A stretch of DNA of 64,000 nt. Source: Sphingosinicella humi (GTDB lineage Bacteria; Pseudomonadota; Alphaproteobacteria; Sphingomonadales; Sphingomonadaceae). Location: assembly GCF_003129465.1 (NCBI RefSeq), contig NZ_QFFF01000002.1, positions 124,001-188,000 of the forward strand, given 5' to 3'. Below are positions 60,309-64,000 of the stretch, piece by piece (position 1 is the first letter of the stretch; each line of letters begins with the position of its first letter). Below the pieces are notes generated by a model. That model was not told where the DNA came from and did no database searches. It saw only the letters and a list, made by a program, of their open reading frames with translations. The translations under genes and the position numbers were made by a program.

Positions 60309-60401
60309 CGCCCTTTTGGATGCCGGCTGGCCCTGTGCGTTCCCGCGGCGCCTCCCGATCGGGCCGGGAACCTCCCGCCCGGCGCGGCATCAAAAGGGCG
60401 T
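60309..60401. repeat. Long inverted repeat between folE and the DUF4142 gene
   Basis: Left arm CGCCCTTTTGgATGCCG (60309-60325), right arm CGGCATCAAAAGGGCG (60386-60401), one insertion apart. Inside are GTTCCCG and CGGGAAC, a second nested pair. It spans the divergent promoter gap and could form a cruciform or a pair of operators. Confidence 0.65.
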
Positions 60402-60423
60402 AACCGACAACCGGAGGGAAGAC

Positions 60424-60948
60424 ATGATCCGCTATACCGCCATTCTCGGAGCCGCCTTGCTCGTCTGCACGGTGCCCGCAACAGCCCAGGCCGCGCCGGC
60501 CGTCACCGACGCGCAGATCGCCCACATCGCCTACACGGCCGGACAGCTCGACATCGACGCGGCGAAGCAGGCGCTCGCCAAATCGAAGGACGCCGAAGTG
60601 CGCGCGTTCGCCGAATCGATGGTGCGCGATCATGAGGCGGTGAACGACAAGGCGCTGGCGCTGGTGAAGAAGCTCGGCGTCACGCCCGAAGCCAATCCCA
60701 CCAGCGAGGCGTTGACCGAGGCTGCCGCCGCCAAGAAGCAGAGCCTCGCCGCGCTGAGCGGGGATGCCTTCGACGAGGCCTATCTGAAAAATGAGGCCGC
60801 CTACCATGCGACGGTGAACAATGCGCTGGCCAGCACCCTCATTCCGGGCGCCAGCAATGCCGAGCTCAAGGCGCTGCTGGAAACCGGCCTTACCCTCTTC
60901 CGCGAGCATCAGGCCCATGCCGAGCAGCTCGCCGCCGGACGCGACTAG
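60424..60948 (+). CDS. DUF4142-domain secreted protein
   Basis: 174 residues. Signal peptide [20 protein letters not shown], cut after AQA. The DUF4142 helical domain has [40 protein letters not shown] and [12 protein letters not shown]. Such proteins have a ferritin-like helical fold with His/Glu residues; function is unknown. It precedes the cupredoxin gene by 3 nt. Confidence 0.85.
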
Positions 60949-60951
60949 GCG

Positions 60952-61299
60952 ATGGCGAGAGGGACCCTTCTCCTGATGGCGGCGGGCCTCGCCCTTCTCC
61001 CCCCGTCGTCAACCTTCGGCGCCGCCAGCATCGCCTACGCCGCGGCGCCGAAGGTCCACACCGTCGTCATGGACAAGATGAAGTTCGGCCCCGTTCCGAA
61101 GAATATCCGGGCCGGCGACACGATCCTGTGGGTCAACCGCGACATGTTTCGCCACACGGCGACGGCACGGGACAAGAGCTTCAACATCGACCTGCCGGCC
61201 GGCAAGAGCGGCAAGACGGTGATCCGCAAAAGCGGGAAGATCCCCTTCTACTGCATCTTTCATCCCGGGATGAAGGGGCAGCTGGTCGTCGCCAAATAA
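60952..61299 (+). CDS. Cupredoxin-like small copper protein
   Basis: 115 residues. Signal peptide followed by a plastocyanin-like domain: NIRAGDTILWVNRDMFRHTA with the first His ligand, and FYCIFHPGMKGQLVVAK with Cys, His and Met in the usual C-x-x-H-x-x-M spacing. A type-1 copper site is predicted. It carries electrons or copper in the periplasm, possibly for the DUF4142 partner (inference). Confidence 0.88.
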   Translation: MARGTLLLMAAGLALLPPSSTFGAASIAYAAAPKVHTVVMDKMKFGPVPKNIRAGDTILWVNRDMFRHTATARDKSFNIDLPAGKSGKTVIRKSGKIPFYCIFHPGMKGQLVVAK

Positions 61300-61359
61300 T
61301 GACAATCCCCGGAGGGCGTGCCAACGTTGCGGCGTTCACGTCTCCGGGGGATATTTTGA

Positions 61360-63477
61360 ATGACGTTCCTGACGCCCGCCCGCGCCGCCCTCGCCTGCGC
61401 CTTCCTTGCTACCACGCCCCTGGCCCAGGCGGCTCCGCCCGAGCCTCCGGTCGCCGCCAAGAAACCTCACGAGGTTCGCGCTCCCCACGGCGCCGTCAGC
61501 CAGGATGAGTATTACTGGCTCCGCGACGACACGCGCGAGGACCCTGAGATGCTGGCCTATCTGAAGGCCGAGAATGCCTATGCGGACGCGGTGCTGGCGC
61601 CCATCAAGCCGCTTCAGGAAAAACTCTACGAGGAGATTGTCGGCCGCATAAAGCAGGACGACAGCTCCGTCCCCTATCGCCTTCGCGGGTATCATTATTA
61701 TTCGCGGTTCGAAGAAGGGCAGAACTACCCCGTCATCGCTCGGCGCAAGGGCAGCATGGACGCGACGGAAGAGATACTGCTCGACCAGAACGCCATGGCC
61801 GAGGGCCACGGCTTCTTCCAGGTCTCCGACTGGGTAGTGAGCCCGGACAACAAGCTGCTCGCCTGGGCCGAGGATACCGTCGGTCGCCGCCAATATGTGC
61901 TGAAGGTCAAGAACCTCGAGACCGGCGAGATGCTCGCCGACGCCGTGACCAATATCGAGCCGAACATCGTCTGGGCCGACGACAACCGCACCCTCTTCTA
62001 TATCGACAAGGACCCAACCACCCTGCTCGGCAATCGGGTCAAGACGCACGTGCTGGGCACGCCCGCCAGCTCTGACAGGCTTGTCTATGAAGAGGCGGAC
62101 GACAGCTTCTACATGGGCATAAACCGGACCCGCGACGACGATTTCATCTGCATCTATGTCCAGAGCACGGTCAGCAGCGAGCAACGCTGCACCTCCGCCG
62201 AAACGCCGGGTGCATTCGCCGTGCTCGCGCCGCGCGAGCGCGACTTCGAATATCAGGCCGACCATCTCGGCGGCCGCTGGGTCATCCGCACCAATTGGGA
62301 CGCGCCGAACTATCGACTGATGACGCTTGCGGACGGGCACGCGCTTGGTGACCGCTCCGTCTGGAATGACATGGTGCCGCACAGCGCCGACGTGTTCATC
62401 GAAGGGTTCGAGCTGTTCGACGACGTTACGGCGATCGAGGAGCGCTCCGGCGGCGTGAAGCGCCTGCGCACCCTCGCCGCCGACGGGAAGAGCGAGTTCG
62501 TGGCTTCGGACGAACCGGCCTACGCAATGTCGCTCGCGAAAAATGCTGAACCGGACACCCAGTGGCTTCGCTACGAATATACGTCGCTCACCACGCCCGA
62601 CACCACTTACGAGGTCAACATGGTGACGGGCGAGCGCAAGCTCTTGAAGCGTCTGCCCGTGCTCGGCGGCTATGATCCCGCCAATTATGTGACCGAGCGG
62701 CTGTGGGCGCCGGCGCGCGACGGAACGAAAATCCCCGTCTCGATCGTCTACAAGAAGGGATTCAAGCCGGACGGCACCGCCGCGCTTCTTCAATATGGCT
62801 ATGGCAGCTACGGCTCATCGATGGATCCCGCCTTCGATTATGCGCGGGTCAGCCTGATCGACCGCGGCATGGCCTATGCGATTGCCCATGTTCGCGGCGG
62901 TCAGGAGATGGGCCGCGCCTGGTACGACGACGGTCATTTGATGAACAAGAAGAACAGCTTCACCGATTTCATCGACGTCACGCGCTATCTCGTCGGCCAA
63001 GGCTACGCCGCGAAAGATCGAGTCGCTGCAGCCGGCCGCCTGCTGATGGGTGCGATCGTCAACATGGCGCCCGAGGATTACAAGGTGATCGTCACCCATG
63101 TCCCCTTCGTCGACGTGGTCACGACGATGCTGGACGAGACGATCCCCCTCACCAGCAACGAGTGGGATGAATGGGGCGATCCGCGCGAGCCGGAGGCCTA
63201 TGCCTACATGCTGTCCTATTCGCCCTACGACAACGTCGAGGCGGAAGCCTATCCGGCCATGTTCGTCGGCACCGGCCTGTGGGACTCGCAGGTGCAATAT
63301 TTCGAGCCCGCCAAATGGGTCGCCCGCCTCCGCGAGCGCGGCACCGGAAGCGCGCCTCTGGTCTTCCGCACCAATATGGAGGCGGGGCACGGCGGCAAGT
63401 CCGGCCGCTTCAACAAATATCGCGAGGCGGCCGAATATTACGCCTTCATGCTGGACCAGCTGGGCGTGGCTCCCTGA
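61360..63477 (+). CDS. S9A prolyl oligopeptidase / oligopeptidase B-like protein lacking the catalytic serine
   Basis: 705 residues. Signal peptide MTFLTPARAALACAFLATTP. The N-terminal beta-propeller and C-terminal hydrolase domain are complete in length. The Asp (GTGLWDSQVQYFEPAKW) and His (EAGHGGKSGRF) are present. The nucleophile elbow, normally GGSAGGLLMG, reads VAAAGRLLMG at residues 555-564: the four residues around Ser are missing and the following Gly is Arg. The frame is otherwise intact, so it looks like an in-frame loss of the active serine. It may be a catalytically dead or binding protein. Confidence 0.87.
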   Translation: MTFLTPARAALACAFLATTPLAQAAPPEPPVAAKKPHEVRAPHGAVSQDEYYWLRDDTREDPEMLAYLKAENAYADAVLAPIKPLQEKLYEEIVGRIKQDDSSVPYRLRGYHYYSRFEEGQNYPVIARRKGSMDATEEILLDQNAMAEGHGFFQVSDWVVSPDNKLLAWAEDTVGRRQYVLKVKNLETGEMLADAVTNIEPNIVWADDNRTLFYIDKDPTTLLGNRVKTHVLGTPASSDRLVYEEADDSFYMGINRTRDDDFICIYVQSTVSSEQRCTSAETPGAFAVLAPRERDFEYQADHLGGRWVIRTNWDAPNYRLMTLADGHALGDRSVWNDMVPHSADVFIEGFELFDDVTAIEERSGGVKRLRTLAADGKSEFVASDEPAYAMSLAKNAEPDTQWLRYEYTSLTTPDTTYEVNMVTGERKLLKRLPVLGGYDPANYVTERLWAPARDGTKIPVSIVYKKGFKPDGTAALLQYGYGSYGSSMDPAFDYARVSLIDRGMAYAIAHVRGGQEMGRAWYDDGHLMNKKNSFTDFIDVTRYLVGQGYAAKDRVAAAGRLLMGAIVNMAPEDYKVIVTHVPFVDVVTTMLDETIPLTSNEWDEWGDPREPEAYAYMLSYSPYDNVEAEAYPAMFVGTGLWDSQVQYFEPAKWVARLRERGTGSAPLVFRTNMEAGHGGKSGRFNKYREAAEYYAFMLDQLGVAP

Positions 63478-63486
63478 GTCGGGGGC

Positions 63487-64000
63487 CTAACCCAGCGCCT
63501 TCTTCAACAGCTCGTTCACGACCTGAGGATTGCCCTTGCCGGCCATCGCCTTCATCGTCTGGCCGACGAAGAAGCCGAACAGCTTGTCCTTGCCTGAGCG
63601 ATACTCGGCGACCTTGTCGGCATTGGCGGCAAGCACCTCGGAGATCACCGCCTCGATGGCGCCGGTGTCGCTGGTCTGCTTGAGGCCGCGCTCGTCAACG
63701 ATCTTGGCGGGATCGTCACCCGTCTCCAGCATGATCTCGAAGACCTGCTTGGCAAGGGTGCCGGAGAGGGTGCCGTCGGCTACGAGGCTCAGGAGCTCCG
63801 CGCCCTGGGCGGGGGTGACGGGGCTTTCCTCGATCGTCTTTCCGAGGCGGTTGAGCGCCCCGAACAGATCGGAGATGAGCCAGTTGGACGCCGCCTTGGC
63901 GACTTGCGTTTCCGGACGCTCCTGCTTCAGCGCAGCTTCGGCGATCAGAGCCTCGAACCAGCGCGCCGTCTCGGCCTCGGCGGTGAGCACGGAGGCGTTG
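63487..64000 (-). CDS. gatB: Aspartyl/glutamyl-tRNA amidotransferase subunit B, 3' part (runs off the window)
   Basis: 171 codons of the C-terminal portion are visible and the frame is open to the window edge. ARWFEALIAEAALKQERPET, KAASNWLISDLFGALNRLGK and the GatB/YqeY tail (LSGTLAKQVFEIMLETGDDP, FFVGQTMKAMAGKGNPQVVN) identify GatB. It makes Gln-tRNA or Asn-tRNA with GatA and GatC. Reads leftwards and converges on the S9A gene, with a 9-nt gap. Confidence 0.95.
   Translation of the reverse strand, partial: NASVLTAEAETARWFEALIAEAALKQERPETQVAKAASNWLISDLFGALNRLGKTIEESPVTPAQGAELLSLVADGTLSGTLAKQVFEIMLETGDDPAKIVDERGLKQTSDTGAIEAVISEVLAANADKVAEYRSGKDKLFGFFVGQTMKAMAGKGNPQVVNELLKKALG

Follow-up and report, generated by a model that had tools for sequence, protein, structure and literature searches.

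An oligopeptidase-B-like S9A peptidase gene recorded without its catalytic serine in a single genome

Peptidases of the S9A family have a two-domain architecture, an N-terminal beta-propeller and a C-terminal alpha/beta-hydrolase domain, and a Ser-Asp-His catalytic triad. In the oligopeptidase B (OpB) of Serratia, D617 and H652 are the catalytic aspartate and histidine, and E576 binds the arginine or lysine at P1 (PMC9917282). Inactive S9 proteins are an already known kind, as exemplified by DPP10 (PMC4350108), and bacterial pseudo-proteases of other families, e.g. CspC and MamO, are already on record. A bacterial S9A pseudo-protease is reported in none of the matches listed in the literature searched, which comprised titles and abstract openings.

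The gene considered here occupies positions 61360..63477 (+) of the window, by which we mean the whole 64-kb stretch of DNA analysed. It encodes an S9A peptidase of 705 amino acids in an uninterrupted reading frame, free of frameshifts and internal stops, and both family domains match far above their Pfam cut-offs: the beta-propeller (PF02897) at residues 30–430 and the catalytic domain (PF00326) at residues 491–702. The closest solved structures are those of Serratia OpB. Because the protein scores below the cut-off of the OpB equivalog model NF007511 (NCBIfam; 688.9 bits vs. 1313, the scan covering the window protein), we call it 'OpB-like'. By eye, its N-terminal stretch looks like a Sec signal peptide, making export putative.

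The triad, in contrast to the domain architecture, is incomplete. Asp642 (63283..63285, +) aligns with the catalytic aspartate D617 of Serratia and His677 (63388..63390, +) with the catalytic histidine H652, but the serine is gone. Glu601 (63160..63162, +), in an invariant column, is the equivalent of E576, so that the glutamate expected of an OpB for binding P1 Arg/Lys is kept. The structure-based alignments behind these columns used 42 of 80 loci. If the deletion is real and recent, an annotation that looked at domains only would label this gene an active oligopeptidase, and such labels should then be read with caution.

The serine is missing from a shortened nucleophile elbow (residues 555–564; 63022..63051, +), delimited by structural and orthologue alignments, where the protein reads D-R-V-A-A-A-G-R-L-L-M-G, with V555 beginning at 63022 and G564 finishing at 63051. 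Aligned with Serratia OpB (PDB 7zjz), the window protein has a gap of exactly four residues, and Serratia position 532, the catalytic serine (alanine in the 7zjz mutant), falls inside it. The initial annotation had described an elbow cut from GGSAGGLLMG to AAAGRLLMG, with Asp and His still there and the remaining protein intact; the Serratia alignment, a 52-row orthologue alignment, the open frame and the normal constraint beyond the elbow (both described below) agree with it on all of this. It had also placed a clean 12-nt in-frame loss at about 63028–63033. The missing length is indeed 12 nt, in frame, but its exact place is ambiguous within 63028–63040, where two placements fit. In the first, the residue preceding the motif is lost together with G-G-S, and a neighbouring glycine has changed to arginine; in the second, S-A-G-G is lost immediately after G-R, which needs no unusual substitution. 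Since five orthologues (L081, L086, L089, L142 and L143) naturally have G-R-S-A-G-G, the second placement is slightly more economical. Whichever applies, there is not one Ser, Thr or Cys within residues 550–578, from which we strongly infer that catalysis by the normal mechanism is dead; cleavage after Arg or Lys is predicted to be absent.

Comparing orthologues, as the initial annotation had proposed, left the window standing alone. G-x-S-A-G-G was found at the aligned place in all 139 homologues read, taking one ORF per locus and leaving out identities below 35%; many further listed matches fall outside this elbow reading. The 139 amount to 138 distinct proteins (L090 and L146 are identical across their last 500 residues), include one paralogue from the window genome itself (L002), and leave out repeats of the window, G004 or G011 (L001, L055, L136–L138, L148–L150). 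Fifty-one of them, at least 56% identical, count as orthologues, every one with the motif, and when these are aligned with the window in 52 rows (each row at least 56% identical and spanning no fewer than 600 query residues; columns starting from window residue 29), the gap occurs in the window only. Two genomes of the same genus have a copy as well. That of G004, at 70% identity, has an intact elbow. The orthologue in G011 is divided between two contig ends (G011:C29 and G011:C246; loci L055/L137 and L136/L148), covering query residues 14–322 and 532–703; its N-terminal fragment is 66% identical and its C-terminal fragment, 73% identical over residues 532–703, carries G-x-S-A-G-G.

A pseudo-OpB clade was sought among relatives, in genomes of the genus and the family and in named contigs, and no serine-less elbow came up among the homologues read. 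Because the 139 homologues and the G011 fragment all carry the motif, we attribute the loss to one genome and not to a clade of pseudo-proteases. When the shortened elbow was searched for as a degenerate pattern at the DNA level, the window genome was likewise the single match among 397 genomes sampled from the family, but this test is weak because only 10 of the 397 (the window genome included, at E 1e-190) have an orthologue and both G004 and G011 lie outside the sample. The genome collections contain one genome per species, including one for the window species.

Beyond the elbow, the protein has kept the constraint of its relatives. At columns invariant in the 51 orthologues the window has five private changes, three of them in the elbow and the others R47S and T599S. 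With the elbow counted, the rows range from 0 to 11 such changes, and the window's five tie for third highest of the 52, which counts against a recent loss; the 11 compared orthologues with end branches of ∼0.3–0.55 have 0–5, the window's own end branch being 0.33. Pairwise dN/dS (NG86, own script) was 0.20–0.31 for seven pairs that include the window gene and 0.23–0.31 for six pairs of intact genes, values that are rough because dS between relatives is ∼0.7–1.2, a divergence that also sets no age for the deletion. Given that both the private changes and dN/dS resemble those of intact orthologues, the rest of the protein has evolved much like an active enzyme. Drift around the active site would be expected of a long-dead enzyme, and its absence here fits a recent loss. 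The constraint on the remainder fits a loss of recent date, or a mistake in the sequence record, better than an old non-catalytic role.

We favour, as somewhat probable, the reading that a redundant accessory OpB-like S9A gene has recently lost its function through an in-frame deletion. Under this reading the deletion would be present in the cell: 12 nt would have been deleted in frame in the window lineage, probably recently, and the catalytic serine removed with them. The product, although it should still fold, would then be unable to form an acyl-enzyme. The gene would be a loss-of-function allele that has taken the first step towards a pseudogene, and the genome may tolerate it because it keeps other S9 peptidases. 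Three full-length relatives, all with the serine, are found in the window genome at 28–42% identity, one of them OpB-like (42%) and two more distant (28–29%); a fifth match in the genome (L005) is partial, 26% identical, and outside the paralogue elbow reading. The gene is accessory, copies at least 66% identical being found in three of 26 genus genomes (the window genome, G004 and G011), some of the 26 being incomplete. In the tree, the window protein falls, with no resolved sister, within a supported group of 30 rows made up of Arenimonas-type, sphingomonad and Asticcacaulis sequences. The G004 copy belongs to a supported group of 20 rows from which the window protein is absent, a topology which hints that the two copies may have been acquired separately.

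As in a pseudogene, an essential residue is gone, in a single lineage, from a rare gene with paralogues left, but stops, frameshifts and relaxed constraint are lacking: the frame is open and constraint normal beyond the elbow. The want of a stop or frameshift counts against a recent loss, as it could equally be explained if a function were retained or if the real gene were intact. The sharing of a loss among orthologues that would mark a pseudoenzyme was seen in 0 of the 139 homologues (51 orthologues included; one genome per species).

Upstream of the oligopeptidase gene lies a cupredoxin-like small protein gene (60952..61299, +), with NCBIfam amicyanin/plastocyanin matches below cut-off, and downstream, in convergent orientation, the C-terminal part of a gatB-like gene (63487..64000, -), named by eye. 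In G001, of the same genus, relatives of these two genes lie 87 bp apart (L157, 1380–1560) with no oligopeptidase between them; an inverted repeat sits in that position. Nine cupredoxin loci besides that of the window were compared, and in the eight outside G001 there is no gatB relative within the stretch examined. The cupredoxin-like gene forms a pair with a DUF4142-like gene, also named by eye (60316–61299 together), and relatives of the pair adjoin in five genomes of the genus (G023, G020, G024, G001 and G022; loci L152, L153, L156, L157 and L158), and four of the stretches also contain a relative of a sigma factor close by. Directly upstream of the oligopeptidase start codon there is a GC-rich inverted repeat (61307–61349), followed by GATATTTTG. 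This repeat was considered as a candidate terminator, but the stretch folds no better than shuffles (z 0.51), and it was not among the matches of a terminator scan that required loops of 3–8 and a T run. A promoter scan of 60900–64000, limited to the sigma-70 consensus, found no site on the + strand.

The first alternative to a recent loss is that the 12 nt are absent from the assembly only, through a sequencing or consensus error in the GC-rich, repeat-like stretch of the elbow, a possibility that the initial annotation had raised as well. We think this unlikely. An otherwise constrained protein is what would be expected were the real gene intact, and the elbow codons of relatives run as GGC/GCC. 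Moreover, the 64-kb window contains no GCCGGC pairs 3–12 nt apart where 3.7 are expected, and GC-matched relatives have 40 such close pairs vs. 38.8 expected. The artefact of repeat collapse that this shortage suggested was not borne out genome-wide, however: across the complete assembly, 140 pairs are close and 166 are spaced 15–24 nt apart, and because the resulting ratio (0.84) lies within the range of 25 sister genomes (0.68–1.94; e.g. G004 363/448, G011 153/211), there is no systematic collapse of the GCCGGC repeat. This comparison concerns one hexamer and speaks against systematic collapse, not against a single local error. Also against an error are the change falling exactly in frame and the state of the assembly, which comprises four contigs and is 100% complete with 0.22% contamination.

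The second alternative, which we consider improbable, is a retained pseudo-protease, a dead oligopeptidase with a binding or scaffolding role like that of DPP6/DPP10 (S9B). A pseudo-protease is what the initial annotation had suggested; the loss of the nucleophile stands, but the non-catalytic role has gained no positive support and the loss recurs in none of the relatives read. In its favour are the full-length reading frame, conserved residues kept except for two, and a confident predicted fold. AlphaFold2 gave a mean pLDDT of 90.8 for the window protein and 93.7 for an intact relative (L058), the window model superimposes on Serratia OpB 7ywp with TM 0.93/0.97, and the strand preceding the elbow is alike in both models. 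The product should thus, to judge from these predictions, still fold into a beta-propeller and an alpha/beta-hydrolase domain, although models built from aligned intact relatives may make a protein look more stable than it is. Precedents exist within S9, an inactive protein with a known role in DPP10 (PMC4350108) and non-hydrolytic functions in PREPL (PMC11385081). On the other hand, the deletion shortens the predicted helix following the elbow (seven residues, 563–569, vs. 12, 535–546, in L058), and Asp, His and the S1 glutamate have not drifted, although a protein long without catalysis could do without them. The rarity of the gene is a further argument, and in the flanks examined, mostly 1.5–6 kb, none of the tested neighbours turned up next to orthologues at E 1e-6. 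Slightly less probable still is a version in which a putatively exported OpB, its nucleophile deleted and its P1 pocket kept, now serves as a peptide-binding or decoy protein. Finally, a peptidase still active through another nucleophile or a rebuilt elbow would account for the retained Asp, His and P1 glutamate but is most improbable, given the lack of Ser, Thr and Cys around the elbow and the PDB titles of the Serratia S532A structures, which call them catalytically non active.

Should the deletion be real and recent, as we favour, it would add one more case of a redundant accessory peptidase caught at the start of gene loss; about bacterial pseudo-proteases it would teach something new only if selection turns out to act on the dead protein. 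Set beside known systems, the protein is nearest to the OpB of Serratia proteamaculans (SpOpB; PDB 7ywp, S532A mutant 7zjz), with which it has in common the two-domain S9A fold, 47% identity in structural alignment, and the conserved Asp, His and P1-binding Glu; it differs in lacking the catalytic serine and three neighbouring residues and in its putative signal peptide, recognized by eye. The 51 intact orthologues (from Arenimonas, Lysobacter, Sphingomonas, Asticcacaulis and others, ∼56–72% identical) are of the same family and domain order and have nearly all invariant residues in common with the window protein, but all of them carry G-x-S-A-G-G and none is gapped there. DPP6 and DPP10, inactive S9B peptidases, resemble it in having an S9 fold without the catalytic serine. 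According to PMC4350108, however, their serine is substituted (by Asp or Gly) and the DPP10 elbow is unaltered, whereas the window protein has a deletion, found in one genome; and for DPP6 and DPP10 a role, the modulation of channels, is known.
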